From: Phycisphaerales bacterium
GTDB lineage: Bacteria; Planctomycetota; Phycisphaerae; Phycisphaerales; SM1A02
Length of the DNA stretch: 34,826 nt
Direction of reading: 5' to 3'
Assembly: GCA_030748805.1 (NCBI GenBank)
Contig: JASMLG010000071.1
Span: 1 to 34,826 of the forward strand
In this document: piece by piece, positions 20 to 27,597 of the stretch
Position numbering within the stretch: the stretch's first letter is position 1
Layout: the number at the start of each line of letters is the position of its first letter
Notes under the pieces: model-generated
The model's input: the letters and a program-made list of their open reading frames with translations, nothing else
The model's database searches: none
What the model was told of the DNA's origin: nothing
Made by a program: the position numbers and the translations under genes

Positions 20-346
20 ATGGCAAAAGATACAGCAGACAAAATTGTTCCTAACACCGAAGTGACATGCACCATTATTAAAGCCCCAACTCGCCCTGCT
101 TCTCGCAAGACGATTGAGCGCTTAATGTGGATGCAGCCACACGCCAAGAAGGACCTTTCGATGCTCCAACGCCGTCGTAAACAAAAGGACATCAAATACA
201 CAATTCGCGCTGGTCGTGTTTGGTTTGATCGCCCAAGAGCGACAAGGACAGTTCGCTGCGAAAAAGGCGCTTCCTTTACTTTGAATGTAACTCCACAAAT
301 CGTCAATGATTTAAAGAGCATTTCAAAATATCTGGAAATTAAATAA
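20..346 (+). CDS. Small basic protein of unknown function
   Basis: I do not recognise this 108-residue protein. It is rich in Lys and Arg, with the cluster QRRRKQKD near the middle, and has no signal peptide or membrane segment, so a cytoplasmic nucleic-acid- or ribosome-associated role is possible but only inferred. Two ATG codons are adjacent at 17 and 20. The GGAG at 10-13 lies 6 bases before the second and only 3 before the first, so I chose 20. The gene is convergent with the Nudix-like gene and their 3' ends overlap by 8 bases. The upstream context lies outside the window. Confidence 0.6.
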   Translation: MAKDTADKIVPNTEVTCTIIKAPTRPASRKTIERLMWMQPHAKKDLSMLQRRRKQKDIKYTIRAGRVWFDRPRATRTVRCEKGASFTLNVTPQIVNDLKSISKYLEIK

Positions 347-959
347 ATCTCAACATCACTTCTGTAATTGGTGTCATTGACTCAGGTGGATTATCTAACC
401 CAAGCCACTCCAATTTTTGATATTCATCGTTTCCATTTACTGAAGCAGTGGATGATGTTAGTTTGAAAATAAGTTCCCACGTTCTTGCAAATTCATCAAA
501 AATCATAGCAATTGCTATTGGTGGTGCTGCTAGATCAAGCCCCGTTTCTTCGAGCAACTCTTTTTCGATAGTTCTCTCTGGGGAATTTTCAGGGGAAACA
601 CATCCAGCGGGAGCAAACTCCCATTCATCTGGATATTGTCGAACTAAACCACTTCGTTTTCCAAAGAGATATGCTCCTTCGAATTCTGTAATTCCCTTCA
701 CACCAAGTGTCCGTACACCCAAATCATACGTTGCATCTTGTACTGCAAAAAAACGATACGAACATGGTATTACATGAACATTTGCTCCACCACATCCATT
801 TCGCTGCGCTCCGAGAACATGCAACAACGTCCCATCAAAACACGCGGGGTTGCTATTGCAAAGTTGTTCCCAACGACGATCAACTTCTTCCATGCCCACT
901 CCGTCAGGAACGAACAAACCATCTTGTTGGTGTATCGTTGCGGGACGCTTGAGTAGCAT
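339..959 (-). CDS. Nudix-family hydrolase-like protein with an imperfect Nudix box
   Basis: This 206-residue protein carries a recognisable Nudix box (family consensus Gx5Ex7REUxEExGU) beginning at AGCVSPEN and ending in KELLEETGL. The catalytic-helix glutamates of the EExG part are present, but the Arg of the consensus is Lys and the upstream Glu is displaced by one position. Nudix enzymes hydrolyse nucleoside diphosphates linked to another moiety; the substrate cannot be read here. Its ATG overlaps the stop of the aldehyde dehydrogenase gene as TAATG, which indicates translational coupling in a two-gene operon. Possible roles are NAD- or CoA-related housecleaning for the dehydrogenase, but that is inference from context. 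Activity could be reduced by the altered box. Confidence 0.72.
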   Translation of the reverse strand: MLLKRPATIHQQDGLFVPDGVGMEEVDRRWEQLCNSNPACFDGTLLHVLGAQRNGCGGANVHVIPCSYRFFAVQDATYDLGVRTLGVKGITEFEGAYLFGKRSGLVRQYPDEWEFAPAGCVSPENSPERTIEKELLEETGLDLAAPPIAIAMIFDEFARTWELIFKLTSSTASVNGNDEYQKLEWLGLDNPPESMTPITEVMLRFI

Positions 960-2500
960 TAACCGAATTCAATACCTTGTGCCAGTGGCATTTCATCGCT
1001 CCAGTTACTTGTGCAAGTTTGGCGTCGCATATATACCTTCCAAGAGTCGGAGCCGGACTCGCGACCACCACCTGTATCTTTTTCGCCACCAAACGCACCA
1101 CCAATTTCAGCACCACTTGTGCCGATGTTGACATTTGCAATTCCGCAGTCCGAACCCTCAGGTGACAAGAATCTTCCTGCACTCCGCATAGAGTTTGTAA
1201 AGATAGCGCTACTCAAGCCTTGATCAACGTTGTTATGCATTTCGAGTGCTTCATCTAAATCGCTTATCGTAAAGATGTAAAGAATTGGAGCAAAGGTTTC
1301 GTCTTTAGTTACTTCTGGTTGTGTTCCAACAGGAACTTTCACAATTGTTGGCTCAACGAAGTTACCCGGACGATCAGCCCATCGTTCGATGCCTTCAATG
1401 CCACCGCAAAGAATTTCACAGCCCTCTTCTTTTGCTTGTACAAGTGCGTTGCGCATATCTTCGACTGCATACTCGGTAATAAGTGGACCCATCAAAGTGG
1501 AATCATCAAGAGGATTGCCGATTTGAACTTGTTCGTATGCCTTAAGCAAACCGTTAGTTACTTGGTCTACGACCGATTCGTGGCAAAGCAAACGTCTAGT
1601 TGACGTACAACGCTGCCCTGCTGTTCCAACTGCACCAAAGAGTGTGCCTCTTATGACCATATCTAAGTCAGCATCGTCCATAATAATGATTGCGTTGTTT
1701 CCGCCAAGTTCTAGTAATGATTTTGCAAGGCGACCACCAACAACTTCACCGACGCGGCGTCCCATTTTGCATGAACCCGTTGCACTGATGAGTGGAATTC
1801 TTCGATCAGCAAGAAGCGGTTCGCCAACCTCTTCGCGTGAGCCGAAGACCAAACCAAACACATCGCAAGGATCTCCATTTTCGGGAGTGAAGATATCTTG
1901 GTTTCGCATGATTTCGTGTGCTACGTTTGTCATTGCAATTGCAGTGAGTGGGGTTGTGCTGCTTGGTTTCCAAATCATCGTGTCGCCACAAACTGCAGCA
2001 AGCATTGAGTTCCAAGCCCAGACAGCAACAGGGAAGTTAAACGCGGAAATAATTCCGATTGTTCCAAGTGGTTGCCATTGTTCCATCATTGCATGGCGTG
2101 GTCTTTCAGATGCGATGGTCAAGCCATAAAGCTGACGAGACAGCCCAACTGCAAAGTCGGCGATGTCGATACATTCAACAACTTCGCCAATACCTTCAGC
2201 GATGATTTTTCCCGCTTCCATGGCAACAAGTTCGCCAAGTGGCCTCTCATATTCACGAAAAGCGTTACCAATTCTTCGAACAATTTCGCCACGCTTTGGG
2301 GCTGGTAACATTCTCCATTCCTTAAAAATTGCATTGGAACGTGCGACTTGGTCGTTGTATTCATCGTTCGTCTGCTTCCTTACTGCAGCAATTGGCTCAC
2401 CCGTTGCTGGGTTGTAGGAAATGGTGTGACGGTCGGTAGCATCAGATGGATCGACGACCCAAGGGTGCTCAATAAGTGATGTGAGTGTAGTAGTTGTCAT
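959..2500 (-). CDS. Aldehyde dehydrogenase, ALDH7 (aminoadipate-semialdehyde/P6C dehydrogenase-like)
   Basis: A full-length 513-residue NAD(P)-dependent aldehyde dehydrogenase. Visible landmarks are the oxyanion-hole Asn in ISAFNFP (about N155), the general base Glu in LLELGGNN (about E264) and the nucleophile Cys in GTAGQRCTSTRR (about C298). The stretch GTSGAEIGGAFGGEKDTGGG near residue 460-480 is typical of the ALDH7/antiquitin group, which oxidises alpha-aminoadipate semialdehyde (in equilibrium with piperideine-6-carboxylate) in lysine degradation and can also handle other aldehydes. Cytoplasmic. It is followed with stop/start overlap by the Nudix-like gene. No Shine-Dalgarno is evident; instead a TAGAAT hexamer sits 6 bases before the ATG. 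Family assignment is firm, the exact substrate is not. Confidence 0.88.
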   Translation of the reverse strand: MTTTTLTSLIEHPWVVDPSDATDRHTISYNPATGEPIAAVRKQTNDEYNDQVARSNAIFKEWRMLPAPKRGEIVRRIGNAFREYERPLGELVAMEAGKIIAEGIGEVVECIDIADFAVGLSRQLYGLTIASERPRHAMMEQWQPLGTIGIISAFNFPVAVWAWNSMLAAVCGDTMIWKPSSTTPLTAIAMTNVAHEIMRNQDIFTPENGDPCDVFGLVFGSREEVGEPLLADRRIPLISATGSCKMGRRVGEVVGGRLAKSLLELGGNNAIIIMDDADLDMVIRGTLFGAVGTAGQRCTSTRRLLCHESVVDQVTNGLLKAYEQVQIGNPLDDSTLMGPLITEYAVEDMRNALVQAKEEGCEILCGGIEGIERWADRPGNFVEPTIVKVPVGTQPEVTKDETFAPILYIFTISDLDEALEMHNNVDQGLSSAIFTNSMRSAGRFLSPEGSDCGIANVNIGTSGAEIGGAFGGEKDTGGGRESGSDSWKVYMRRQTCTSNWSDEMPLAQGIEFG

Positions 2501-2506
2501 CCCTGT

Positions 2507-2515
2507 ATTCTAACA
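2507..2515 (-). promoter_or_regulatory. Extended -10 promoter element for the ALDH gene (leaderless type)
   Basis: Reading the minus strand, TGTTAGAAT is an extended -10 (TGn plus TAGAAT) whose last base is 6 bases before the ATG of the dehydrogenase. A transcript starting at the usual distance would begin at the start codon. It lies back to back with the scoB promoter in a 40-base intergenic region. Confidence 0.55.
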
Positions 2516-2525
2516 CAGCAAGAGG

Positions 2526-2534
2526 TGGTATTAT
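2526..2534 (+). promoter_or_regulatory. Extended -10 promoter element for scoB (leaderless type)
   Basis: TGGTATTAT forms an extended -10 whose TATTAT ends 6 bases before the scoB ATG, the same geometry as the divergent ALDH promoter. The expected -35 position (about 2506-2511) falls on the ALDH -10, so polymerase binding at the two promoters should be mutually exclusive. The GAGGTGG at 2522-2528 could alternatively be read as a distant ribosome binding site. Confidence 0.5.
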
Positions 2535-2540
2535 TCCATT

Positions 2541-3179
2541 ATGCCACTTGATCGAAACGGAATTGCAAAGCGTGCCGCACATGAACTCAGAGACGGCTTT
2601 TATGTGAATTTAGGGATTGGCATGCCAACACTTGTCGCTAACTATGTTCCAGAAGGAATGACTGTTTGGCTACAGTCCGAGAATGGGCTACTAGGAATGG
2701 GTGAGTTTCCGACTGAAGATAATGTTGATGCCGACCTCATTAACGCGGGTAAACAAACAGTAACCGCCGTTCCAGGAGCGAGTTATTTTTCCTCTGCTGA
2801 ATCGTTTGAGATGATTCGCGGCGGGCATGTTGACCTTGCGATTCTCGGGGCAATGGAAATTTCACAAGAAGGCGATATCGCAAACTGGATGATTCCAGGA
2901 AAGATGATTAAGGGAATGGGTGGCGCAATGGATCTCGTTGCTGGTGTAAACAAGGTTGTGGTCATCATGGATCACGTCACTCGCAAGGGTGATCCAAAAC
3001 TTATTCCTGAGTGCACCCTACCGCTAACTGGTCTTAGGTGCATCGACATGATTATCACCGATTTATGTGTAATGGTGATGAACGAAGAAAAACGACGTTT
3101 TGAAATCACCGAACTCGCCCCAGACGTCTCAATTGACGAAGTTCTCGAAAAAACCACCGCCGAAGTGCTTGTTAATTAA
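2541..3179 (+). CDS. scoB: 3-oxoacid CoA-transferase, B (beta) subunit
   Basis: This 212-residue protein matches the B subunit of succinyl-CoA:3-ketoacid/acetoacetate CoA-transferases. It has the glycine-rich N-terminus NLGIGMPT and the catalytic motif SENGLLGMG, whose Glu (about E47) forms the covalent CoA thioester intermediate. Length agrees with the family B subunit (about 210-220 residues). These enzymes work as A plus B heteromers and the two genes are normally adjacent, but no A subunit is present anywhere in this window, so the partner must be encoded elsewhere or be absent. Related substrates (butyrate, 3-oxoadipate) cannot be excluded. It is transcribed away from the ALDH gene. Confidence 0.85.
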   Translation: MPLDRNGIAKRAAHELRDGFYVNLGIGMPTLVANYVPEGMTVWLQSENGLLGMGEFPTEDNVDADLINAGKQTVTAVPGASYFSSAESFEMIRGGHVDLAILGAMEISQEGDIANWMIPGKMIKGMGGAMDLVAGVNKVVVIMDHVTRKGDPKLIPECTLPLTGLRCIDMIITDLCVMVMNEEKRRFEITELAPDVSIDEVLEKTTAEVLVN

Positions 3180-3266: not shown

Positions 3267-3343
3267 AGTTGCGGGAGAATAGGATTTTTATCGCTTTTTC
3301 TCATAGTGGCAACGGTGCTGCTTCTAGAGAAAGGAGTTTCTTT

Positions 3344-4516
3344 ATGTTTACTTCTCTGATTATTGCTAGTTTAATTATCACGCCGCAATCGTTAGATGCT
3401 GAGGATCTTGGTTGTATAAGTGACGGTCAGTGCTACGCATGGGCAATGAACGAATCCGGTTGGGTTGCTGGATATGGCGATGCTCCAAATGGTATGAGCC
3501 AACATGGTTTTGTATGGAACGAGAACGAGATTGTGCATATCGTTCCTCTCAATTATCCAAATGGAGGTAACTGCTGGGCATACGGCATCAATGATTTTGG
3601 TGATGTTGTAGGTTACTCAAGTAATGGCGGACTTTCGATTCACGCTTTCCTTTGGGATGGCGAACAGATGAACGATCTAGGTGCCCCTGCATGGGCAACG
3701 GCAGATTTTAGTCGAGCGCAAGACATAAACAACAATGGCTGGATTGTAGGAATGGCAGGTGGTGTTCCATACGATCTTCGCGGTTTTATTAAACACGATG
3801 ACGTTTGGGACGAAATCCCAACATTCGGTGGGAATGAAAGTCGCGCGTATGCAATCAATGATTTAAATGATGTCGTTGGTTGGACAAGAAATAAAGACGG
3901 AAAATTTCGTGCTTTCGCTATCCCAAATGGTAATCTCAAGTTGATGACAGATATCGGTGACCTAGGTGGAAGTGCTGCTGAAGCATTCGATGTCAATAAC
4001 AATAGAGTAATCGTTGGACAATCAAAGGTTGATGACACATATTTCCATGCTTTTACTTGGTCTCAAGATGGGGGAATGGTCGACCTAGGAACTCTTGGTG
4101 GAAATGAAAGTTATGCTTGGTCAATTAACGATTCCAACGTTGTTGTGGGCAAATCACTGATGGCTGATGGTACCTCACATGGTTTTATCTATATGGATGG
4201 AACCATGTATGACGTAAACGATTTCATCGTTCCTGATCTAGATATTACTATCGTAAATATCCGCGATATTAATAGTTCGGGTCAACTTGCAGCAGTAGCC
4301 GAATACCCAGATGGCACAAAGAGACCTTACTTACTTACTCCAATGGGTGAAACATTGCCAGAAGATGTAAATGGTGATGGGAATGTCGATGTTGTGGATT
4401 TGCTTGCTGTCGTCGGTGCTTGGGGACCCTGCAAGGACTGCAACGAAGATATCAACGGTGACTCTATGGTCGATGTGGTTGACTTACTTGCCGTCATCGG
4501 TGCTTGGGGCGAGTAA
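3344..4516 (+). CDS. Secreted HAF-repeat protein with two C-terminal dockerin-like repeats
   Basis: The start at 3344 is set by AAAGGAG at 3330-3336, and it begins a good signal peptide (MFTSLIIASLIITPQSLDA, cleavage near LDA). A longer reading from a TTG at 3269 would add 25 residues without signal character. The 390-residue product contains six to seven HAF-type extracellular repeats, recognisable by alternating cores such as AYGINDFGDVVGYS, AQDINNNGWIVGMA and AWSINDSNVVVGKS. Near the C-terminus are two dockerin-type Ca-binding-like repeats (DVNGDGNVDVVDLLAVVGAWG and a second copy ending VIGAWGE). In Phycisphaerae such endings are common on secreted proteins and are thought to act in surface attachment or sorting. 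The exact function is unknown. A Cys-rich coding-like region follows immediately in another frame. Confidence 0.82.
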   Translation: MFTSLIIASLIITPQSLDAEDLGCISDGQCYAWAMNESGWVAGYGDAPNGMSQHGFVWNENEIVHIVPLNYPNGGNCWAYGINDFGDVVGYSSNGGLSIHAFLWDGEQMNDLGAPAWATADFSRAQDINNNGWIVGMAGGVPYDLRGFIKHDDVWDEIPTFGGNESRAYAINDLNDVVGWTRNKDGKFRAFAIPNGNLKLMTDIGDLGGSAAEAFDVNNNRVIVGQSKVDDTYFHAFTWSQDGGMVDLGTLGGNESYAWSINDSNVVVGKSLMADGTSHGFIYMDGTMYDVNDFIVPDLDITIVNIRDINSSGQLAAVAEYPDGTKRPYLLTPMGETLPEDVNGDGNVDVVDLLAVVGAWGPCKDCNEDINGDSMVDVVDLLAVIGAWGE

Positions 4517-4868
4517 CGTTCCACAACACGTATGCATCGACAGCAATAACAATCGGGTTATTGCTTGTAACACAAGGGTTTGCTGGGAAATCCTAAGCGA
4601 TAATTGCGAAGATGCATTGCCAATTTCTGACGGTGCACACGGTTTCACAACAGTTGATGGCCACTGGTATGGGTACGGTTCTTTGTGCGAAGAAGTATTG
4701 TGTAATCCACAATGCCCCTTTGGAGAGATTGCTGACCGCAACGGAAACTGCGCTCCAATTTCATGGCTTGGTGACGGCTATTGTGATAATGGCACATTTG
4801 AATGGAGCGGAAATCCAATCTTTTTTGATTGTCCAGAATTTCTAAATGACTTGGGTGATTGCAACTAA
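4517..4868 (+). pseudogene. Out-of-frame Cys-rich tail with LNR-like module
   Basis: This frame has protein-like composition but no start codon of its own with a ribosome binding site. It reads NVPQHVCIDSNNN, then a DNCEDALPISDG segment of the kind common in secreted Phycisphaerae proteins. It ends with a Lin-12/Notch-repeat-like module (WLGDGYCDNGTFEW ... CPEFLNDLGDC) rich in Cys and acidic residues. It lies +1 relative to the HAF/dockerin gene. A change near the GGGG run at 4506-4509, or two missing bases at the stop codon, would fuse it to that gene; the latter would give AWGECNV, matching the AWGPC of the first dockerin repeat. Alternatives are a remnant of another secreted protein or an assembly error. 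Confidence 0.55.
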
Positions 4869-4925: not shown

Positions 4926-5981
4926 TTAAAATTCTTTTGAACGGTATTGCATCTGTGACTTGAGTCGTGCAAGAATAGATGAGTGCATCTGGCTTACTCG
5001 TGACTCTGATAGATCCAAAGTTAACCCTATTTCTTTCATTGTCATTTCTTCGTAATAATAAAGAACAACAATCAAACGTTCTGCTCTGGTCAATCCCTTT
5101 GTCAAGAGTAATTGCAAATCCTTTTTTTGCAATTCGATAACTGGGTTTTCTTGCCGTTGATCTTTTATTACGTCTATTTCTTGAACTTCTTTTGATGAGT
5201 CCGAATCGTACGCCTTTCGATTCAATGACGTCATCATCACTGGTCTAGAGTCACGTTCGATTTTTTCAAACTCATCCTTGTCAACTTCAAGTTCTTTGAT
5301 AATTTGGCTTTCAGTGGCTTTAAGACCAGTTTCCATTTCGATTGATTTCCTTGCTCTGTCAACCTTAGTACTTCGGGAACGCACTAATCGAGGAACCCAG
5401 TCCATCGCTCTTAGTTCGTCATAGATAGCACCGCGAATACGCTGAGTGCAATATGTTTCAAACTTAAATCCACGCTCTAAGTCATAAGCATCAATCGCTT
5501 GCATCAGACCAAATAGACCTGCAGAATATAAATCATCAACATCTACTTCTGAAGGAAGTTTCTGATGTACTCGTTCTGCGGTATAACGAACCAGTTTCAG
5601 ATAATGTTCCATCAAAACATTTCGAAACTCTAGAGTCGGTTCATCCTTATATGTCAACCATATATCGAGAAGAACCATTTCTCCGTTCGCTGTTTCCACT
5701 TTGACATCGAGACCCTTTGGCACTTTGCCTTTGAGTTTCAATTTACTGTTACTCTTAACTGTTGCACTTGGCATCGGTCGACTCCTTGACCCTATCACCG
5801 TTTCAGAACACACGTGTGTTCCAACTTTTCCATCCTGCCGATCCTTGGCATCGATGTTTCGGGAACTATACCGCGCATCTATGTCTTTTGAGGAGTTGGT
5901 GTGGGTTTTGTTTGTCATGATTAGTAAATTTGTCGCACTGCGACTCCTAATGAAAGTCACATTCATATTCATTCTGTTCAA
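4926..5981 (-). CDS. fliA: RNA polymerase sigma factor, FliA/WhiG (sigma-28) type
   Basis: A 351-residue sigma-70-family factor. Region 2 is clear at about residues 115-200 (VDVDDLYSAGLFGLMQAID, FKFETYCTQRIRGAIYDELR, DWVPR). Region 3 follows at 205-265, and the region 4 helix-turn-helix lies at 297-345 (LTRAERLIVVLYYYEEMTMKEIG, SESRVSQMHSSI). The DWVPR and RGAIYDELR signatures are typical of FliA/WhiG, which direct flagellar or developmental genes. The N-terminus carries about 100 extra residues, Ser/Asp/Lys-rich and unlike the family. The start is TTG at 5981 with GAGG 5 bases upstream; ATG codons at 5972 and 5966 are alternatives. It is transcribed after the FlhA-FlhF fusion gene, matching the common flhA-flhF-fliA order in flagellar clusters. 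Whether this organism is motile is not shown here. Confidence 0.9.
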   Translation of the reverse strand: MNRMNMNVTFIRSRSATNLLIMTNKTHTNSSKDIDARYSSRNIDAKDRQDGKVGTHVCSETVIGSRSRPMPSATVKSNSKLKLKGKVPKGLDVKVETANGEMVLLDIWLTYKDEPTLEFRNVLMEHYLKLVRYTAERVHQKLPSEVDVDDLYSAGLFGLMQAIDAYDLERGFKFETYCTQRIRGAIYDELRAMDWVPRLVRSRSTKVDRARKSIEMETGLKATESQIIKELEVDKDEFEKIERDSRPVMMTSLNRKAYDSDSSKEVQEIDVIKDQRQENPVIELQKKDLQLLLTKGLTRAERLIVVLYYYEEMTMKEIGLTLDLSESRVSQMHSSILARLKSQMQYRSKEF

Positions 5982-6145: not shown

Positions 6146-8566
6146 TTATCGGCCGTGACTTAGAAGCATCTCAATCAATCTAGTTGATTTAGCAAGGTCA
6201 AGATGTGATGCAACGTCTTGCCCATCTGTAAACCAACTTATTGGTTTTTCTATATCACACAAGGTAGATACAATCTCACCGATCGTAACTACTTCATCTA
6301 ATTTAGTAATAATCATACGGTCATATCTTGTTTTGGAAAAGCTTTCCAATGCCCGTTTTGAAGCCGAAATCGATGATGCTGCTGAAATGACTAGGTGTGT
6401 CTGAGTTGGATTTGCAGCTTCTAAGATGTCTGCTGTTTCGTGGATACGATCACCATCACGAGCACTTCGTCCTGAGGTATCTATAAGAACAATGTCCTTT
6501 TCTGAACACGAAGCAATTGCCTCTTTCATCTGTACTACAGTTCCAGCAATTTCAAGTTGTGCATCAAACAAGTCAGCATATTGTCGCAATTGGTCTATTG
6601 CAGCTACTCTGTATGTATCAGCAGTAATTAACGCAACGCTTCTTCCTTGTTGTAATCGAAATCTAGCAGCCAATTTTGCAATCGTAGTTGTCTTACCAGC
6701 CCCAGTTGGGCCTACTAGAGCGATTACGTTCCTTTCAAATGAATCTTGTTTTGGAGGTGCTATAGTTCTTGGTAATCTCTTTAGCAATTCATCAAACAAG
6801 TATGAGTTAAATTCATCTTCGCTAAACTGATAATCAACACTTAATGAATGGACTATATTGGATGCAAGATTCGGCTCAATCCCCTTCTCAAGCAAACAAT
6901 CATACGACTTAGAAAGTAGTGGAGATAATTTATCTTCAAATTCGTTTTCGAGTACCTCTCTTACAAGAGTTCTGATTTCTGCAATCCCGCTTTCAATTCT
7001 ATCTGTAACAGAACACCTTTCCGGTTTCTGAAGTATTGATTTTGCATATGCAATGGTTTGCTGTTTATCCTCACCTCCAACTCCATTCATCTTATTGTTA
7101 ATTAAACCAACTGGTTCAAGTTGGCCAACCACCTTCAAATCAACTTCTGGAACTATTTCGCTTTTGCTTAATACAACTACGTCCCTTATATTGCTAGCAA
7201 CTTGTTCTCTAACCTGCCTGCGGTATTTGCTTGAAGACACGACAACAATTGGTAAGCCATCTGAAATTAACGGAAGTGCGGCATGTTGTAGAGCAGTTAA
7301 AATTTTCTCTTTAGAAACATTCTTTTCATACAACGCCCGCTCTAAATCCTCTGGTAAAACTACACATCGAATCACTTGCTTACCATCAAAGTCATGTGTA
7401 GATACATTCGCACATATTTGTCTTCTAAGAGTTGATCTCACGTTCTCGACACATTCCTCTAAAGACAATTCACTGCAATCAGAAGCTGATTCGATAATAC
7501 TTGAAAGATCTTTTATCGAAACCTGCTCTTCAAGTAATGATTTTAGAATGTGGTGCAATCGAGAGATAGTAAGCGTCTTTCCCATCACCCTATTTATTAA
7601 TCTGGGATAATCATGAGTTATTTCTTCCACCATCTTTGAAACATCTTCGCGGGAAATCATTTCCGAAGCATGTTTTTCCACAACTTTACATAAATGTGTC
7701 ATAACAACAGATACTGGACTCATTGCCTGAATGAATAACTCACCCATGGAATCACGTACTTCTTCTGTCACCCAAATTGCAGATAACCCGAATACCGGCT
7801 CTCTCTCAGTAATTCCATCAATATCCAAAGATTCGCTATCGCTTGTTACTATCATAAATCTATCTGGATATACAACTCCATCACCCACAATCCCACCACG
7901 TAAATAAATCCGATACGAATTTGCAGATAATTTTACATTATCCTTAATACATATCGATGGGACATGTAATCCAAGATCATCTAAAACAGACGCTCTTAGT
8001 GATGAAATTTTTTCAATTATGTTTCCTTCCAAATCTGTTGATGCGAGTGACAACAATGAACATCCAAGTTCAAGTTTTATGATTGATTCTCTTGCAGATG
8101 AAGTAACAGATTCCTTTCCTCCCATTTCTTCTACAGACGATTCTTCTTCGTTGAATTGAGAGTGCTGGTAACTATTCCAAGACAGCGCACAAAAAAGTAC
8201 AGCCAAAAGTAATAATGGTGCTGTTGGGAGTGGGGTCATTGAAAGAACAACTAAAAAGAAAGCTATGGATCCATGGGCTGCGGTCTGAGATATTAACTGT
8301 TTAGGTATTTCTACTCCGAGAAGCATCTGATTACTCGCTCTAGCAATCAAATTAATAAGACCCACAAGCAGCCCAAGAACCAAGATTGCACTCCAAGCAT
8401 CGGTGTTCATTGAAAATGCCTTTTGACTAGAAGTCAATAAATCTGTCTGGTTTGTGGCATAAGAGGCACGCAATAACCCACCCGCAATAGCATAACTACA
8501 ACATTTGAGCGCTTTTGAGCGCATCTTGGCCGTCCTTGGCTCCATAATTAAGGCATCCTTGCCCAT
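6146..8566 (-). CDS. flhA-flhF: Fusion of FlhA cytosolic domain with FlhF SRP-type GTPase
   Basis: An 806-residue protein with two recognisable halves. Residues about 57-130 hold two to three hydrophobic segments resembling the end of the FlhA membrane domain. Residues about 160-485 match the FlhA cytosolic domain (LELGCSLLSL, PVFGLSAIWV, SPVSVVMTHLCKVVEKHA, EVDLKVVGQLE). Residues about 515-806 are the N and G domains of FlhF: P-loop GPTGAGKTTT at 619-628, DTYRVAAIDQLRQYA at 650, DTSGR at 696, TKLDE at 754. FlhA alone is normally about 690 residues with eight membrane helices and the FHIPEP signature; here the first five or so helices and that signature are missing, as is the basic FlhF N-terminal domain. 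The first ATG lacks a clear ribosome binding site; the ATG of residue 15 has AAGGA 8 bases upstream. The gene precedes the FliA-type sigma factor. Confidence 0.85.
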   Translation of the reverse strand: MGKDALIMEPRTAKMRSKALKCCSYAIAGGLLRASYATNQTDLLTSSQKAFSMNTDAWSAILVLGLLVGLINLIARASNQMLLGVEIPKQLISQTAAHGSIAFFLVVLSMTPLPTAPLLLLAVLFCALSWNSYQHSQFNEEESSVEEMGGKESVTSSARESIIKLELGCSLLSLASTDLEGNIIEKISSLRASVLDDLGLHVPSICIKDNVKLSANSYRIYLRGGIVGDGVVYPDRFMIVTSDSESLDIDGITEREPVFGLSAIWVTEEVRDSMGELFIQAMSPVSVVMTHLCKVVEKHASEMISREDVSKMVEEITHDYPRLINRVMGKTLTISRLHHILKSLLEEQVSIKDLSSIIESASDCSELSLEECVENVRSTLRRQICANVSTHDFDGKQVIRCVVLPEDLERALYEKNVSKEKILTALQHAALPLISDGLPIVVVSSSKYRRQVREQVASNIRDVVVLSKSEIVPEVDLKVVGQLEPVGLINNKMNGVGGEDKQQTIAYAKSILQKPERCSVTDRIESGIAEIRTLVREVLENEFEDKLSPLLSKSYDCLLEKGIEPNLASNIVHSLSVDYQFSEDEFNSYLFDELLKRLPRTIAPPKQDSFERNVIALVGPTGAGKTTTIAKLAARFRLQQGRSVALITADTYRVAAIDQLRQYADLFDAQLEIAGTVVQMKEAIASCSEKDIVLIDTSGRSARDGDRIHETADILEAANPTQTHLVISAASSISASKRALESFSKTRYDRMIITKLDEVVTIGEIVSTLCDIEKPISWFTDGQDVASHLDLAKSTRLIEMLLSHGR

Positions 8567-8644: not shown

Positions 8645-9697
8645 ATGCTAAAACTTGCCATTTTTTTTACCGTCATTTGTATTAGTTCAATCACCGTAGC
8701 TCAAGAAACCTATGATTTGGATATCAAGTCGGATGATTGGGTTTTGGAGAATGCCCCAAAACCAAATTCCCCAGAAGCTCAACTTGCTGCTGCAGCGAAA
8801 CAATTAGCAGAGGGTAATTACCAAGAGGCCATGCGACTTTCATCAAATTGGATAGAAAGAAACAAGTATTATTGGGAACTAATTCCGAAAGCACATATGA
8901 TTCATGGCGATTCGTTATTTGCCCAAAAGTATTACTATGAATCGCTATTTGATTATGAAATTGTTGCGAGAGTTTACGCTGGAACTTCTGAAGAAATTCC
9001 AGCAATCGAAAAGGAAGTCGAAATTGCTACCATGTTCGCACATGGAACTCGAAAATTGCAATGGGGGATGAGAATTTCAGACGCTACCGATGAGGCAATT
9101 GAACTGTTAATACGAGCTCAACAGCGTCTTCCCGATAGTCCACTTGCTGAAAAAGCAGCAATGGAACTTGCTGACCTATATTTTCGCACATCAGAAATGT
9201 TACTTGCCAATGACATGTATGACATATTTGTTGCGAACTATCCCAACTCTCTTAACTTGAACAAGGCAAAAGTTATGTCTATACGAACACAACTTGCAAC
9301 CTATAGAGATTCTGCTTTTGACGATTCTGGACTAGTTGATGCTAGAAGCAAACTTGTTCGGTTAAAAAGCAGGAATCCAATTCTCGCTTCTCAGATAATC
9401 ACATCAGGCCTAATAACGAGAATTGATGAGTCACTAGGGCAGAAAATGCTGAAAACTGCTCAATGGTACCTACGAGTAAATAATCCAATTGCAGCTGAAT
9501 ACACTATTAGGCAATTAATAATAAAACACGGAAATACCACAGCAACAATTGAAGCACTAGAGAGACTGATTCCAAAAATCCTACCGATGCTACCTCCAAT
9601 CGTGTTGAAGGACATCAACGATTTTTATGATGTTCACCAAGAAGTGTTGCTGGGAAAAATAATTACTTCTATTGAAATACCTGAGGATAAACAGTGA
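8645..9697 (+). CDS. Secreted TPR protein, BamD-like
   Basis: The 350-residue product begins with a signal peptide (MLKLAIFFTVICISSITVAQ, probable cleavage after VAQ) and is otherwise alpha-helical, with tetratricopeptide-like repeats. Examples are AAAKQLAEGNYQEAMRLSSNWIE and AAMELADLYFRTSEMLLANDMYDIFVANYP. The spacing and the 'FxxxYPNS' pattern recall BamD/YfiO, the TPR subunit of the outer-membrane beta-barrel assembly machine. Unlike true BamD there is no lipobox Cys after the signal sequence, so it may be periplasmic rather than lipid-anchored. Its stop overlaps the start of the LptE-like gene (GTGA), suggesting a coupled envelope-biogenesis operon. Other periplasmic TPR scaffolds remain possible. 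Confidence 0.65.
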   Translation: MLKLAIFFTVICISSITVAQETYDLDIKSDDWVLENAPKPNSPEAQLAAAAKQLAEGNYQEAMRLSSNWIERNKYYWELIPKAHMIHGDSLFAQKYYYESLFDYEIVARVYAGTSEEIPAIEKEVEIATMFAHGTRKLQWGMRISDATDEAIELLIRAQQRLPDSPLAEKAAMELADLYFRTSEMLLANDMYDIFVANYPNSLNLNKAKVMSIRTQLATYRDSAFDDSGLVDARSKLVRLKSRNPILASQIITSGLITRIDESLGQKMLKTAQWYLRVNNPIAAEYTIRQLIIKHGNTTATIEALERLIPKILPMLPPIVLKDINDFYDVHQEVLLGKIITSIEIPEDKQ

Positions 9698-10203
9698 CTC
9701 GACTACTATTAATTACTATTACTTTAATACTTAGCTGTTGTGCTAGTGATCCTACGGTTGGCTATTCATCGTCCTCACTTTATTCAAAACAATTTCAATC
9801 CGTTGCAATCCCGATTTTTGAAAACAACACCTTGAACCGCAATCTGGAATTCATGCTTACTGACGCACTTATCAAAGAGATACAAACCAGAACATCTTAC
9901 CGAGTTGTCGGGGAACAATATGCAGACACTCTATTAACCGGAACAATTAAATCCGTAGATTTGCAGACATTAAGCCAATCGAGCAATACTGGTTTAGATA
10001 ACGAAGTTCTAATCAAAACTGTTATCGACTTTGAGTGGCTAAATATGAATAGTGGAGGTAGAATTGTTGGACGGAATAATTTTTCAAGCAGTTCGCTATT
10101 CATCCCATCACGTCCATCCTCAGAACCAATCGAAATGGGGCAATTCGCAGTTGTACAACAGTTGGCATCCGATATAGTCGATCAAATGCAAGCATCTTGG
10201 TAA
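9694..10203 (+). CDS. lptE: LptE-like outer-membrane lipoprotein (LPS assembly)
   Basis: A 169-residue lipoprotein. The N-terminus MTRLLLITITLILSCCAS is a type II signal peptide with a lipidation Cys at position 15 or 16. The mature start, VAIPIFENNTLNRNLEFMLTDALIKEIQ, is characteristic of the LptE/LPS-assembly family, which plugs the LptD barrel and delivers lipopolysaccharide to the outer leaflet. The start is GTG at 9694, overlapping the previous stop by four bases, with GAGG 8 bases upstream. Its coupling to a BamD-like gene fits outer-membrane assembly. Family members are divergent, so the assignment rests on the N-terminal motif and size. Confidence 0.72.
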   Translation: MTRLLLITITLILSCCASDPTVGYSSSSLYSKQFQSVAIPIFENNTLNRNLEFMLTDALIKEIQTRTSYRVVGEQYADTLLTGTIKSVDLQTLSQSSNTGLDNEVLIKTVIDFEWLNMNSGGRIVGRNNFSSSSLFIPSRPSSEPIEMGQFAVVQQLASDIVDQMQASW

Positions 10204-10264
10204 TAGTCACATTATGACGAATAACACTTATGCGGATATTATGTAGCAAACTTACGTCATCAAA

Positions 10265-10270
10265 TATAAA
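10265..10270 (+). promoter_or_regulatory. Candidate -10 element of ftsH
   Basis: TATAAA lies 17 bases before the ftsH ATG, predicting a leader of only about 10 bases. No Shine-Dalgarno is visible in front of the ATG and no convincing -35 was found. Confidence 0.35.
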
Positions 10271-10287
10271 ACAGGCACACCACAATA

Positions 10288-12291
10288 ATGGCTAATCCAA
10301 CCGGCAATCAGAAAAATCAAACACCCCAACAGAAGCCAAAGTTCTCAAGAGGCATTTTAAGTTGGATGCTTATATGTTTCGTGTTAATAATGATGTGGGG
10401 GGTAATCAATGGCTCAGGTAGCGGGCGAGAAATTACTAGTTGGTATGATTTCATTAATCGAGCCAAGGCGGGACAGTTTGAAGATAATCACGTCACTATA
10501 GAAAACACACGCCTAGTTGCAACAATCAGTACAGGGAGCGAAACACCAGTCGGATCTATAGATATTCCAGCAGGTACTGAAGTATTTTTCCCCATCTCAT
10601 CAAGTGGTGATGATTGGTATAAAGATGAGTTCAAGGCCGTTGGAATTGATTTCAATAATGAAAAAGATAGCGGCATACTCATGACACTTCTGATGAGTTG
10701 GGCTCCAATGCTCTTCATCTTGTTCTTGATTTTCTTTTTCATCTCAAGATCTGCCAGGGCGGGCGGAGCTGGTGGCATGATTGGTAGTTTTGGAAAATCC
10801 AAGCACAAACTCGCAAACAAAGATTCCAACAAGGTTACATTCCAAGACGTTGCTGGAGTTGAAGAGGCAAAAGCCGAAGTTCATGAAATTATTGAGTTCT
10901 TAAGAAACCCCAAAAAGTTCGCTCGTCTTGGAGGACGAATCCCAAGAGGTATTTTACTTGTGGGGTCTCCTGGATGCGGAAAAACATTGCTTGCAAAAGC
11001 AATTGCTGGAGAAGCTAACGTACCTTTCTTTACAATATCCGGATCTGACTTCGTAGAGATGTTTGTGGGTGTTGGCGCAAGTCGTGTTCGTGACTTATTC
11101 AAACAAGCCAAAGATGCATCACCATGCATCATATTCCTTGATGAAATAGACGCTGTAGGACGTAAGCGGGGAAGCGGGTTTTCAAGCGGTGGGCATGATG
11201 AACGAGAACAAACACTTAATGCAATTCTAGTTGAGATGGATGGCTTTGAATTAAGCGACCAGGTGATTGTAATGGCTGCTACAAACCGTCCTGATGTACT
11301 TGACCCAGCTCTTACTAGACCAGGAAGGTTCGATCGACAAGTTCATGTTCCACTGCCAGACGTTGAAGGTAGAAAGGCAATTCTTGAAGTACACGCTAAG
11401 AAAATAAAACTTTGCCCAAATGTTGACTTGTCGCGTGTGGCAAGAGGAACTCCAATGTTTAGCGGTGCAGATCTTGAAGCGCTAATAAACGAAGCAGCTA
11501 TTATTGCAACCCTAGCAGATAAAGATTTCGTTGGACAACTTGATCTTGACGAAGCAAGAGATAAAATTAGATGGGGTCGCGCTAGCAAGAGTCGAAAGAT
11601 TGAGGAACTTGAAAGAGTCGCAACTGCATACCATGAAGCAGGTCATGCTGTTGTCCAACTTGTACTTCCCCATGCTGATCCAGTCCATAAGGTAACTATT
11701 ATTCCTCGAGGACAGTCAGGTGGGGCAACATTTAGTTTGCCAGAAAAGGATCGTTATTTCTACAACCGAAAATTCCTTGAAGCATCGATGAGGGTTCTAT
11801 GTGGTGGTCGAATTGCAGAAAGAAGAAAAACAAATGACATCTCAAGTGGGGCTTCAATGGATATCCAAATGGCTACAAGTTATGCAAGGCATATGATTCT
11901 TGACTGGGGGATGTCCGATCGACTTGGTTTCGTCATGTATTCACCTGATCCAAATAGGGAAGCGATTTTCGCTGAACGTGATTATTCGCCAGACACTGCC
12001 CGAATAATAGACGAGGAAATAAAGCGATTAATTGATTCTGCTTATGCAGAAACAGAGCGAATCCTAGATGAAAATTGGGAGAAAGTCGAGACAATCGCTG
12101 AAGCATTACTCGAATACGAAACACTTCAAGCAGAAGAACTTGAACAATTGATGAGAGGAGAAACCATTAGTCGTTCTTCTGTAAGTGATTTACTTGAGCA
12201 AGAAGCAAATCTATCAATTACAACAGAATCCACTAATGAAAATGACTCTGGGGAATCGACTTCTGGAGATGCGGTGCCATCACCTGCTTAA
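10288..12291 (+). CDS. ftsH: ATP-dependent zinc metalloprotease FtsH
   Basis: A 667-residue FtsH, the membrane-anchored hexameric protease that degrades misfolded and regulatory proteins at the inner membrane. Order: first membrane helix about 23-40, periplasmic segment to about 128, second helix about 130-152. The AAA domain follows, with Walker A GSPGCGKT (226-233), Walker B IIFLDEID (281-288) and the second region of homology [19 protein letters not shown]. The peptidase has zinc site HEAGH (449-453) and third ligand Asp in GASMDIQMA (about 525). The Walker A differs from the usual GPPGTGKT, although the GKT core is intact. The C-terminus is a Ser/Glu/Asn-rich tail. The 3' end overlaps the convergent membrane-protein gene by 12 bases. 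Confidence 0.97.
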
Positions 12292-23538: not shown

Positions 23539-26500
23539 TTATTTCTTGCCGCAACATTTTTTGTACTTTTTGCCGCTTCCACATGGGCATGGTTCGTTAC
23601 GTCCAACAGTCATTGTCCCAGCACCTTTTGACTTAATTACCTCAGAAGCAGCGCGAGTTGAGTGTTGGGCTGCTTTTGATCTCGAAGACATTTGCTTTTG
23701 ATGTGGTTGTTGAGTTGCTTTTTGTTTCTGTTCTTGTTGTTGTTTCTGCTGTTGTGCTGGCACACTCACTTGCATTTTTGCTTTAAACACCAAGTCGCTA
23801 ACCCTATCTTGAATGTGCTCAAACATTTCATCAAAAAGTCGAGCACCCTCCCGTTTATATTCGATCCTAGGATCAAGTTGGCTAAATGATCTAAATCCAA
23901 TTGACTCTTTTGCTTGATCCATCTGATATAAGTGGTCTTTCCAAACACCATCAAATATTTGCAACAGTACTGTTCGTTCAAGTTGTGCCAATTCTGCACG
24001 CTGTATTTGTTTGATCTTTGCTCTTGAGACAGCCAGCGGATCTTCCTTCGCTTGTTCAATTTCTTGATCTAGCAATGCGAAGTTCCAGTTTTCTCGTAAC
24101 CACTTATCTATATCGCCATCACTTTCATCCACAATCCTCTGAGCACGACGCTCGTAGCGATCGTCGTCCCATCTATTGGCTTCTTCGACTAAGAACTTTT
24201 TCAACTCTTCAGGACTGTTTGAAGGTAATGATTGGGGTGTCCAATCTAATTCGTACTTGAGTTTTACCCAGTTACAAAATCCTTCAATTGCTTTTGCTGG
24301 ATCTTGCTGCATCCTTACGTTTGTCATATCCATCATAAACTCGATTGGATACTCTCTTTCTCTGATGGAATAAACATCCATCGCTTTCTCCATTACAAGA
24401 TCGACTGCTTCGTCTGGCTCAAGATTGTCAAAATCACTTGGCTTACACTCAATGTCAAATTTTGATTTCGCCCATTTAGTTAATTCTTCCTGAGCATGCA
24501 TCGGGACTAAAAATGGATCTAGCGGTGAGAGGTCAATTGCTTGAATTTTTTCTGCAGCAGCGTCTTCTATTCTTTCAATAATTTCTTCACGAGACATTTC
24601 AGTTGCTTCAGCAATTGTAATATTACAATTCCATGCAGAAGCTCCCCAATCAACTGCTCCCTTGTAATCCCAAGTGGTTTCATCGCGTTCTGCAACTTTA
24701 CCTTCCCCTAAATCAATTGTATCTGGAAGATACTCACCGATAGTAACGCGAATAATTTCTACTGATTCCTCAAGGGAATCACGAATTATCAATTTATGTA
24801 GATCCTCGCGATCTTTTCCAACAATTCTATCTGCTTCTATGTCAACGTTCAGATTCTCGCGAATCCACTCTGACATACAACTCGCAGAATATGAGGGGTC
24901 AAGATAGTTGCAAACCGAATCAGTAACTGCTTTCTCTATGTAATCGAAGATTAGTTCGCGAATCTCTCTACCCTCTAAGACCTGCTGTCGCAAATCGTAA
25001 AATACGTGCCGTTGATGATCCATTACTTCATCGTATTCAAGAATATTCTTACGAACTAAAAAATTCCGCTCTTCCACTTTTCGCTGGGCTTTTGTCAATG
25101 CCTTGGTCAGCATGTTGTGTTCAATCGCAACACCTTCCTTCATGCCCATCTTGCTTAAGAGTTGCAACGTTCTTGGACCTGCAAACATTTTCATCAGGTC
25201 ATCTTCTAAACTCAAGAAGAAACGTGTTGAACCATTATCACCTTGCCGTCCACTACGACCACGCAACTGATTGTCAATTCGCCGTGCTTCGTGACGTTCG
25301 GTTGCAATCACATGAAGACCTCCCATGTCTTCAACACCTTCAAAGAATCTGAGTTTGTGCAACAGGCAAGCTCCACTTCGATCTATGTCATCAATTAATT
25401 TGCCTTCCTTTGTGGAATGCGCCTTATCGCCATCCACCCACCAGCAACAAGTTGCCCACCAGTACTCTAACAGTTTCCGGCGAATGTCAACCTCAGACAT
25501 TGACTCAACATCTGCTTTACGGAGTCCGAGTTCTTTTGGCGCAATATGACGATAGATTTTTGGAACAACTTCATCAATGTCCATGTCTGCAGTAACATCA
25601 CGAGGGCAAAGGTCAGTACGTTTCCAATGCTCTATCAATTCAGCAGGTGTAAATAACGCCAATTTAATATCTGTACCTCGTCCAGCCATATTTGTCGCAA
25701 CAGTTACTGAGCCAAGTTCACCAGCGAACTTTACGATTTCTGATTCTCTCTCGTGTTGTTCGGCATTTAGAACTTCGTGATTGATATTAAACCTACCTTT
25801 GAGCAGTTCACTTAATTCTTTTGATTTTTCAACACTGGTTGTACCTGCTAGAACTGGTCGACCTACTCGATACATGGAATATATTTCTTCTACTGCTGCA
25901 TTTGTTTTATCTTTAGATGATGTAAAAACAAGATCATTGTGGTCATTACGAACAACTGGAACGTTCGTAGGGATAACCAAAACATCAAGACCATAGATTT
26001 CATAAAATTCTGTTGCTTCAGTATCTGCGGTACCAGTCATACCTGCAAGTTTCTCGTACAACTTGTAGAAATTCTGAATGGTAATTGTTGCCATCGTTTG
26101 CGTCTCTTGTTTAATTTCTACGCCTTCTTTTGATTCGATTGCTTGATGCAACCCATCTGACCATTGACGCCCTACCATCTTTCGACCTGTATTTTGGTCA
26201 ATAATAATAATGCTCATCACCCCTTTGTCATCTGGGGCAACCATGTAATCACGGTCACGCTGGTAGACAGTATGCGCACGAATCGACTGTTCTAAAAGGT
26301 GAGGTACATCCATGTTTTCGCCAACATAGAACGAACCAATATTTGCTTCTTTCTGAGCTTCAGCAACTCCTTCGTGTGTTAACGTTGCTCGTTTTTTGTC
26401 AAGTTCAATTTCATAGAATTGAGTGTACTGATCTCGGTTCTGTTCAAGTTCTGGAAGATCTTTTTTCGCCACTGCCATACGCTCTTTGAGCGCAGGTATT

Positions 26501-27597
26501 GTCGATTTATCCATCGCATTCCGAATATCACCTTCAAGACCACTTATCTTGACTAGACATGATTGCACTTCTTGATCAAGTTTTTCCCATGGTTTTTGCT
26601 TTTCAAGCAAGTGCTTTGCTAGATTATCAGCAAGCTCATAACGTGGTTGGTCGTCATGAGCAAGACCAGAGATGATTAGTGGTGTTCTTGCTTCATCAAT
26701 TAGAGTCGAGTCAACTTCGTCAACAATTGCAATTTGTCGGCGTTTTTGAACTTGCTCTTGTGGGGTCATCTTCATGTTATCTCGAAGGTAATCGAATCCG
26801 AATTCTGCGGTTGTTCCATAAACAACATCACAGTGATATGCCAATTGTTTTAGTTGTGGGTGTTGCATGTGCTGAGGATGGATTGCTCCAACAGTTAACC
26901 CCAACATTCTAAAGAATGGAAAAGTCCAGTCTCGGTCACGTTGAACTAGATAATCATTCACTGTAACAACATGTACTTGCTTACCTTCGATTGCAGCTAG
27001 GTAACAAGATAGAGGGGCAACTATTGTCTTACCCTCTCCTGTTTTCATTTCAGCAATTCGACCTTCATAGAGAACCACCGCACCGACGAGTTGCACGTCA
27101 AAGGGGCGAGCGCGAAACGGTGGTTTTGACTGTGGATACAGCTCTCGAACTGCTTCGTACAGTTCAGCAGGAATATCTACAAATAACCATGGCGGAACTG
27201 GCTCAACACTACCAAGTAATTCGCGGTCTGGTTTGCGGTCTTCGGTTGCCTCAATTATTTCTTTTGTTTCATCGTAAAGTTTTCTGGCAGATTCCTCTAA
27301 CTGAGATGGATCAAACTCATGAACTGGGTTGAATATATTCCGTATACCTACGGATCGATCCATTGCCTCGCGGGCGATTGCGAAGACCTCTGGAATTAAA
27401 TCCGTTGCTTTTTCACCGTCAGCAACCCGATTCCGGAACTCTTCTGTTTTTGCATATAACTCAGCATCTGTAAGAATTCTGGTTTCCGACTCAAGTGACG
27501 AAACCTGCTCAACCAACTTTAAATATCGCTTGACCATTCGATCATTGCGACTACCAAATACCTTACGACCTACTGTACTTACTACTGGAACGCCCAT
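23539..27597 (-). CDS. secA: Protein translocase ATPase SecA, enlarged
   Basis: SecA drives preproteins through SecYEG. At 1352 residues it is far longer than the usual 800-950. Visible parts: Walker A MKTGEGKT (184-191), DEVD (293-296), the preprotein cross-linking domain with an extra helical stretch (about 330-405), and NAEQHERE and TNMAGRGTDI in the second nucleotide-binding domain. A Trp/Cys-containing insertion of about 95 residues follows (646-741), then GRSGRQGD. The helical wing/scaffold region is roughly doubled (about 900-1190), the scaffold helix continues with VWKDHLYQMDQ, and a Gln-rich linker precedes the zinc-binding CPCGSGKKYKKCC. A GAGGTG ribosome binding site precedes the ATG. 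It is the second gene after the small membrane protein. Confidence 0.97.
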   Translation of the reverse strand: MGVPVVSTVGRKVFGSRNDRMVKRYLKLVEQVSSLESETRILTDAELYAKTEEFRNRVADGEKATDLIPEVFAIAREAMDRSVGIRNIFNPVHEFDPSQLEESARKLYDETKEIIEATEDRKPDRELLGSVEPVPPWLFVDIPAELYEAVRELYPQSKPPFRARPFDVQLVGAVVLYEGRIAEMKTGEGKTIVAPLSCYLAAIEGKQVHVVTVNDYLVQRDRDWTFPFFRMLGLTVGAIHPQHMQHPQLKQLAYHCDVVYGTTAEFGFDYLRDNMKMTPQEQVQKRRQIAIVDEVDSTLIDEARTPLIISGLAHDDQPRYELADNLAKHLLEKQKPWEKLDQEVQSCLVKISGLEGDIRNAMDKSTIPALKERMAVAKKDLPELEQNRDQYTQFYEIELDKKRATLTHEGVAEAQKEANIGSFYVGENMDVPHLLEQSIRAHTVYQRDRDYMVAPDDKGVMSIIIIDQNTGRKMVGRQWSDGLHQAIESKEGVEIKQETQTMATITIQNFYKLYEKLAGMTGTADTEATEFYEIYGLDVLVIPTNVPVVRNDHNDLVFTSSKDKTNAAVEEIYSMYRVGRPVLAGTTSVEKSKELSELLKGRFNINHEVLNAEQHERESEIVKFAGELGSVTVATNMAGRGTDIKLALFTPAELIEHWKRTDLCPRDVTADMDIDEVVPKIYRHIAPKELGLRKADVESMSEVDIRRKLLEYWWATCCWWVDGDKAHSTKEGKLIDDIDRSGACLLHKLRFFEGVEDMGGLHVIATERHEARRIDNQLRGRSGRQGDNGSTRFFLSLEDDLMKMFAGPRTLQLLSKMGMKEGVAIEHNMLTKALTKAQRKVEERNFLVRKNILEYDEVMDHQRHVFYDLRQQVLEGREIRELIFDYIEKAVTDSVCNYLDPSYSASCMSEWIRENLNVDIEADRIVGKDREDLHKLIIRDSLEESVEIIRVTIGEYLPDTIDLGEGKVAERDETTWDYKGAVDWGASAWNCNITIAEATEMSREEIIERIEDAAAEKIQAIDLSPLDPFLVPMHAQEELTKWAKSKFDIECKPSDFDNLEPDEAVDLVMEKAMDVYSIREREYPIEFMMDMTNVRMQQDPAKAIEGFCNWVKLKYELDWTPQSLPSNSPEELKKFLVEEANRWDDDRYERRAQRIVDESDGDIDKWLRENWNFALLDQEIEQAKEDPLAVSRAKIKQIQRAELAQLERTVLLQIFDGVWKDHLYQMDQAKESIGFRSFSQLDPRIEYKREGARLFDEMFEHIQDRVSDLVFKAKMQVSVPAQQQKQQQEQKQKATQQPHQKQMSSRSKAAQHSTRAASEVIKSKGAGTMTVGRNEPCPCGSGKKYKKCCGKK

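Follow-up and report, generated by a model that had tools for sequence, protein, structure and literature searches.

How did parts of three flagellar proteins come to lie in a single gene, and what could their product do in bacteria that apparently have no flagellum? Both questions are raised by a gene in a 34,826-nt stretch of DNA from a Phycisphaerales bacterium (contig JASMLG010000071.1), which was analysed over its whole length and is called the window here. A first-pass annotation, made from the sequence alone, had described one uninterrupted frame with FlhA-type motifs followed by FlhF GTPase motifs. This description holds, as the named motifs are present and the minus-strand frame 6146-8566 encodes 806 amino acids without an internal stop. 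The locus contains the following features (window positions, strand):

6146..8566, minus: FliO-FlhA-FlhF fusion gene, 806 codons counted from the first ATG
8366..8566, minus: FliO-derived N-terminus, residues about 1-67, a signal-peptide-like segment and the first half of a membrane helix (blastp, alignment)
8339..8395, minus: hybrid membrane helix, residues 58-76, with the FliO/FlhA junction (alignment)
7121..8368, minus: FlhA part, residues about 67-482, comprising the end of TM6, TM7, TM8, the linker and the cytosolic domain (Pfam, NCBIfam, Foldseek)
6161..7084, minus: FlhF part, residues about 495-802, N and G domains without the B domain (NCBIfam, Pfam, PDB)
6683..6712, minus: P-loop GPTGAGKTTT, residues 619-628 (conservation in alignment A1)
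4926..5981, minus: FliA/WhiG-type sigma factor gene adjoining the fusion (NCBIfam TIGR02479, 230.5 bits, cut-off 189.6)
8645..12291, plus: conserved flank with YfiO-like, LptE and FtsH-like genes (FtsH named by eye)
339..3179: other conserved flank, with NUDIX and aldehyde dehydrogenase genes (minus) and a CoA-transferase gene (plus)

Anatomy of the fused protein

The middle of the protein derives from FlhA. Residues 73-475 match Pfam FHIPEP over profile positions 234-656 of 657 (E 8e-73; 246 bits, cut-off 29.1), and residues 73-482 match NCBIfam FlhA over positions 249-677 of 678 with 251 bits, below the curated cut-off of 772. The view that this is a gene fusion lacking most of the FlhA pore is borne out by the late start of the FHIPEP match at 234 of 657; from this profile start and the alignment to relatives, FlhA helices 1-5 and the FHIPEP region are absent. 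By sequence, the closest solved chain for the FlhA part is 3myd. The fold of the FlhA cytosolic domain is predicted to be retained in the AF2 model (mean pLDDT 68.9, pTM 0.35; residues 1-56 below 50): its best PDB structure matches, among the best 50 listed, are FlhA cytosolic domains, and the best Foldseek match of this model of pTM 0.35 is 6ch1, a FlhA cytosolic domain (E 1.6e-24, TM-score (target) 0.80).

The N-terminus turned out to be FliO-like and not FlhA over residues ~1-66, a part that the first-pass annotation had missed. In blastp, the window N-terminus matched FliO of G009 with 40% identity over 65 amino acids (E 6e-10). Comparing the N-termini of six fusion proteins with 608 ORF records, some of them duplicated, gave FliO matches for five of the six (10 FliO rows; the weakest best match was that of G005, E 1.4e-5) and none for the N-terminus of G002. 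Matches other than FliO were limited to four weak rows from one query (E 0.007-0.008; two proteins, each duplicated), and reversed N-terminus queries found nothing in these records. FliO of G007 was identified by Pfam. The alignment with relatives places the junction within one membrane helix, with the FliO half first and the FlhA helix 6 half last, and residues 58-76 of the window are gap-free in all 20 rows of A1, an alignment that includes the window and uses its residue numbering. Two residues are missing directly after this segment in G002 and P0020. Two or three last FlhA helices had been thought to be kept; three membrane helices are indeed present, but the first of the three is a FliO/FlhA hybrid, so that only the end of TM6, together with TM7 and TM8, comes from FlhA.

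The C-terminal part is FlhF-derived. It matches the Pfam SRP54 GTPase over residues 613-802 (E 4e-41) and NCBIfam FlhF TIGR03499 over residues 504-699 (profile 93-286 of 286; 163.4 bits, below the cut-off of 174.15), and the closest solved chain by sequence is FlhF 2px0 (residues 549-801). We take residues 619-628 to be the P-loop and residues 650-656, 696-700, 755-758 and 782-784 to be the cores of other GTPase motifs. Across the 20 rows of A1, nine of the ten P-loop positions never vary, nor do most positions of the other motifs, and by these comparisons the fusion carries an SRP-type G domain with its motifs. Separate FlhF proteins are 311-326 amino acids long in six of seven relatives with intact genes, 373 in G009 and 536 in the flagellated G034, and the short ones begin at the same point as the FlhF sequence of the fusion (N-termini compared by eye). 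The basic N-terminal domain of FlhF is absent, as had been proposed (the profile match starts at 93 of 286), but loss of this B domain probably preceded the fusion, because in close relatives FlhF, still a protein of its own, is already short and has the same start.

With the fusion as query, at least 82 proteins of a large protein set matched at E <= 0.001, with scoring among the 7994 candidates that shared most words. PF00771 and PF00448 occurred together in at least 21 of them, the window's own among these 21. The at least 20 further clusters with both domains (P0002-P0021; from jgi, ena, ncbi and others) are 46-67% identical to the window: 50-67% for the 19 other rows of A1 and 46% for the partial P0021. 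All 20 A1 rows bridge the FlhA-FlhF junction. Occurrence of both domains in data from several sources, together with these junction-crossing rows, confirms at the sequence level that the fusion is neither chance nor misassembly. Its start codon is uncertain, since the protein-database model has 799 amino acids. Nine of the 19 other A1 rows start at residue 12 or 15 of the window, four at or before residue 1 and the remaining six at residues 28-53, the latter lacking part of the FliO segment as modelled.

Origin by deletion within a flagellar operon

The first-pass annotation had called for a search of relatives for the same architecture, which was found in the above clusters and, among 121 related genomes, in six. 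The PF00771 search covered these 121 genomes, chosen around G002, and the searches for FliP, FliI, rod proteins, FliM/N, FliG, flagellin and SRP54 covered a set of 19, so that a fusion involving full-length FlhA may exist elsewhere among the 121. The counts cover the six fusion genomes G001 (partial), G002, G005, G006, G010 and G013, with the window's own genome lying outside the set. PF00771 matched in 105 of the 121 genomes and left 16 unmatched. Truncated FlhA was the only form of FlhA in the six fusion genomes, with one PF00771 match each, and in each of them an SRP54 match shares the same or an overlapping open frame. In the profile search, FliP was found in 10 of 19 genomes, including all seven intact relatives (G003, G004, G007, G008, G009, G011 and G012, which have FlhA and FliP without the flagellum set), and in none of the six fusion genomes. 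FliI over the cut-off, rod proteins, FliM/N and flagellin were each present in two of 19, always G034 and G067, the two genomes with the flagellum set; FliG was found in these two and weakly in G069. None of these five was detected in any fusion genome. G014, G018 and G030 gave no FlhA match, and G069, cut at a contig end, was counted as neither fused nor intact. As genome completeness was not given, absence from any one genome is weak evidence, and in-place synteny is the stronger. G063 and G097 have two FlhA matches each, the second of G063 beginning at a contig end.

Six intact loci (L042-L047, from G003, G004, G007, G008, G009 and G011) carry fliA, flhF, flhA, flhB, fliR, fliQ and fliP in a row, and next to fliP come the YfiO-like, LptE and FtsH-like genes that border the fusion in the window; the contig of the seventh, L048 (G012), ends after flhB. 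On the opposite side, four of the loci L042-L047 show the aldehyde dehydrogenase gene, and two end before reaching it. Pfam identified FliO, FliP, FlhB, FlhF and a ParA-type protein in L044, and FliQ and FliR were named from position, size and between-locus similarity only. A fliO ORF was called in four of the seven intact relatives (G004, G007, G008 and G009). In these four operons the distance from fliO start to flhF end is 6298-6468 nt, versus 2421 nt for the window's gene, so about 4 kb has been lost; FliQ, FliR and FlhB are missing from the fusion locus. The comparison gives good support to an ancestor with a fliO-fliP-fliQ-fliR-flhB-flhA-flhF-fliA operon and to the fusion as the leftover of an in-place loss of about 4 kb, an event the first-pass annotation had not seen. 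The order taken here as ancestral is that of the Pseudomonas putida operon flhA-flhF-fleN-fliA (excerpts of PMC6424431).

In L042-L047, the genes from fliP to flhF are kept without flagellin, rod, FliM/N, FliG or over-cut-off FliI, a bare flagellar-type gate. We compared FlhA in these relatives and in the fusions with 31 canonical FlhA proteins (the 30 best PF00771 matches and G034), using positions conserved to at least 93%. Out of 103 such positions in the kept part, 49 are retained in 80% or more of 25 fusion rows, which include near-duplicates, and 51 in 80% or more of the seven intact relatives. Much of the change in FlhA therefore came with flagellum loss and not with the fusion.

FliA exceeded its cut-off in 27 of 29 genomes. 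The FliA/WhiG-type sigma factor is kept in G014, G018 and G030, where no FlhA was found; reading FliA as evidence for a common regulon was rejected, and its adjacency to the fusion is no evidence of a shared function. A sigma-28 promoter scan of the window gave two matches against 1.04 expected, neither near the fusion.

Other observations concern the surroundings. Between 959 and 3179, the aldehyde dehydrogenase and CoA-transferase genes of the window are 98% and 96% identical to those of G010, compared with 85% for FliA, 75% for NUDIX and 58% for a YfiO fragment; 959-3179 is possibly a recombined stretch adjoining the fusion. On the plus strand (3269-4868), a DUF3466/dockerin-like ORF (3269-4516) and an ORF in a different frame (4371-4868) overlap; by eye the second reads as the continuation of the first, a possible frameshift, real or made by the assembly. 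SecA (23539-27597, minus) has 1352 amino acids, which exceeds the usual SecA length, and its matched domains are spread out.

The history of the fused allele was addressed with trees. First species trees were set aside, because the 98%-identical aldehyde dehydrogenase and sparse data seemed distorting, and were replaced by trees of 14 genes near the FliF locus (13 genomes, without G034 and the window) and of four flanking genes (11 taxa including the window, without G001, G010, G012 and G034; support 42-100). The 14-gene tree puts the fusion genomes in three places with support of 98-100: G001/G002; G005/G013 beside G009; and G006/G010 beside G003/G011/G008. A single fusion clade was rejected by the 14-gene tree (AU p 1.4e-88) and by the flanking genes (AU p 9.5e-6), and a single vertical origin of the fusion was rejected with it. 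In the fused region (13 taxa; G001 and G034 left out), G005/G013 group with G006/G010 at support 100. The supplied species-based topology is rejected there (AU p 1.6e-47), and a single clade of fusions is accepted (AU p 0.51). Support for this clade is 45 in the fused region, 98 in the FlhA part and 90 in the fused region with G034 included; the FlhF part alone weakly rejects it (AU p 0.03). Our preferred history, one origin with later exchange of the allele between lineages, is the best fit to the shared junction; the fusion may also have arisen two or more times.

Selection, a FliF-like remnant and the possible role

A parallel FliF-like remnant, likewise missed at first, accompanies the fusion. 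PF01514 matched in 11 of the 19 genomes (the seven intact relatives, G006, G034, G067 and G069). A3, a profile built from four short FliF-like proteins, found a relative in 16 of 19 genomes, among them all six fusion genomes, and in none of the three without FlhA. The FliF-like ORF is shortened to 181-267 amino acids in five of the six fusion genomes and matches only the C-terminal part of the A3 profile; these shortened forms are linked to FliF only via longer FliF-like proteins. Where contigs allow, the ORF lies at one conserved locus near diadenylate-cyclase-type and tyrosyl-tRNA synthetase genes, and at this locus G034 has a flagellar cluster. The tail common to the FliF-like ORFs gave no match to the FliF C-terminus of the flagellated G034, and a FliG-like motif in it was unsupported, with no match to FliG.

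Based on these data, we consider it somewhat probable that the operon-deletion fusion is a membrane-anchored FlhF GTPase platform that works with the FliF-like remnant. In the well-supported origin, the flagellum was lost first, leaving no flagellin, rod, FliM/N, FliG or over-cut-off FliI. About 4 kb then went from within the residual operon, which connected the membrane segment of FliO with the last part of helix 6 of FlhA, and flhA was also joined to flhF. In the inferred topology, for which the orientation of FliO follows excerpts of PMC12403147, the FliO helix would replace FlhA helix 6, one out-to-in helix for another, so that the FlhA cytosolic domain and FlhF should stay cytoplasmic. 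Today, the protein would be an SRP-type GTPase anchored in the membrane, its scaffold still folded like the ring domain of FlhA. Through this domain the protein probably forms oligomers; it probably also binds the FliF-like remnant, and GTP-dependent pairing of FlhF domains would probably switch or place a small membrane assembly. The result would be a positioning, targeting or signalling platform derived from the early, location-setting part of flagellum assembly. While anatomy, origin, lack of a gate, constraint and FliF-like co-occurrence are supported by comparison, we infer topology, oligomerisation, FliF binding, GTP switching and role.

In excerpts of published work, FlhA pairs with the FliF C-terminus in Chlamydia (PMC2830194), FlhA co-purifies with FliF-FliG (PMC5542437) and FlhF recruits FliF (PMC7226244). 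Against the platform, the same excerpts state that Vibrio FlhF needs its B and N domains for FliF recruitment (PMC7226244), and the fusion has no B domain; FlhA reportedly depends on FliO/P/Q/R for its assembly in the MS ring (PMC5542437). Further points against it are the in-frame stop in G001, the missing FliO match of the G002 N-terminus, the shortening of five of six FliF-like ORFs with their unmatched tail, the retention of only 49 of the 103 canonical FlhA positions and the low pTM of the AF2 model. A more far-reaching version, which we put forward tentatively as falling a little short of probable, is a minimal membrane machine: a ring of fused subunits that docks on what is left of the MS-ring protein, has GTP as its switch and places or organises something non-flagellar, with the allele recombined between lineages.

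Selection was estimated as dN/dS by Nei-Gojobori, in 100-codon blocks in G006 numbering; in wider pairs, silent sites were saturated over all or parts of the length. The ratio is 0.149 for G006-G010 (832 codons) and 0.095 for G001-G002 (585 codons). Along G006-G010 it is 0.43 in block 1-100, 0.19 in 101-200 and 501-600, 0.15 in 401-500 and 0.08-0.09 in blocks 201-400 and 601-800. These values indicate that the FlhA and FlhF halves are both under purifying selection. They bear on an unlikely alternative, in which FlhF, held at the membrane constitutively, is a targeting GTPase that serves some membrane proteins as a second FtsY-like receptor, and the FlhA part is an anchor only. The intact SRP fold and motifs and the membrane anchor offered by the N-terminus agree with such a receptor, but FlhA blocks 201-400 are constrained like the GTPase in G006-G010, beyond the needs of a plain anchor. 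Moreover, five of the six fusion genomes have two more strong SRP54 matches, taken as Ffh and FtsY (in the 1.6-Mb G002, the fusion is the only one).

We regard it as quite improbable that the gene is a decaying relic, a functionless operon scar whose frame is still open in most genomes. A deletion origin, the shortened FliF-like ORFs in five of six fusion genomes and the 16 of 121 genomes without an FlhA match would suit decay, as would an in-frame TAA in the FlhA part of G001. This stop lies within about 40 bases of the contig end, upstream of the 585 codons compared, and is either real or an end-of-contig error. The frame is, however, open in five of six fusion genomes and in the 19 other A1 rows, dN/dS is 0.08-0.19 over most of the length and the GTPase motif cores are invariant in A1. 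The earlier suggestion of a relic holds for the origin of the gene; for its present state the G001 stop speaks in favour, the open frames and purifying selection against.

It is very improbable that the fusion acts in a residual export or nanotube apparatus with another type III gate. The seven relatives that keep FlhA and FliP without flagellin, rod, FliM/N, FliG or over-cut-off FliI do resemble, as far as excerpts of PMC7277350 go, the non-flagellated Lysobacter with flagellar-type export genes. The fused FlhA, in contrast, has neither the first five helices nor the FHIPEP region, and the full-length second flhA that the first-pass annotation wanted looked for was found by the PF00771 search in none of the six fusion genomes. 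With neither a second FlhA nor FliP in these genomes, an export gate is very unlikely, the fusion should not export proteins, and export function was rejected; the initial idea of a GTPase tethered to the export apparatus is not supported. An assembly or binning artefact has next to no probability: fusion contigs are 3-49 kb long, two named fusion loci are metagenome assemblies (Phycisphaerae/Phycisphaerales) and completeness was not given, but the clusters come from jgi, ena, ncbi and other sources, and the tree of the flanking genes from fusion contigs, with support of 42 to 100, resembles the one for the FliF locus.

Comparison with known systems

We return to the membrane-anchored platform. 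That selection has kept the hybrid in bacteria apparently without a flagellum points to a second use of flagellar components, in a new task at the cell membrane. Related genomes show intermediate steps in the dismantling of a complex machine, from the full flagellum set to bare export-gate genes and to the fused remnant. This remnant retains the FlhA cytosolic domain, FlhF and a FliF-like piece, relatives of which have been reported to bind or recruit each other, and roles of FlhA and FlhF apart from export and motility thereby become testable. We found no published description of an FlhA-FlhF fusion in excerpts of the PMC literature, in agreement with the first-pass annotation.

The fusion resembles the export-gate ring protein FlhA, as residues 73-475 match FHIPEP to the profile end with a predicted cytosolic fold, and differs from it by the lack of helices 1-5 and the FHIPEP region and by its FliO and FlhF parts. 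With FlhF, the SRP-type GTPase of flagellum placement, it shares the N and G domains and the conserved GTPase motifs; unlike FlhF, it has no B domain, is joined to a membrane protein and occurs in genomes without rod proteins or flagellin. According to excerpts of PMC2830194, Chlamydia retains relatives of FlhA and FliF without a flagellum as well, but there the proteins are separate, FliI is kept with them and a type III system for virulence exists alongside; FlhA is fused here, and over-cut-off FliI and FliP were not found in the six fusion genomes. Gene retention is likewise shared with Lysobacter enzymogenes, which reuses flagellar export genes for twitching and has no flagella (excerpts of PMC7277350), yet that set is secretion-competent, whereas no gate was found in the fusion genomes.
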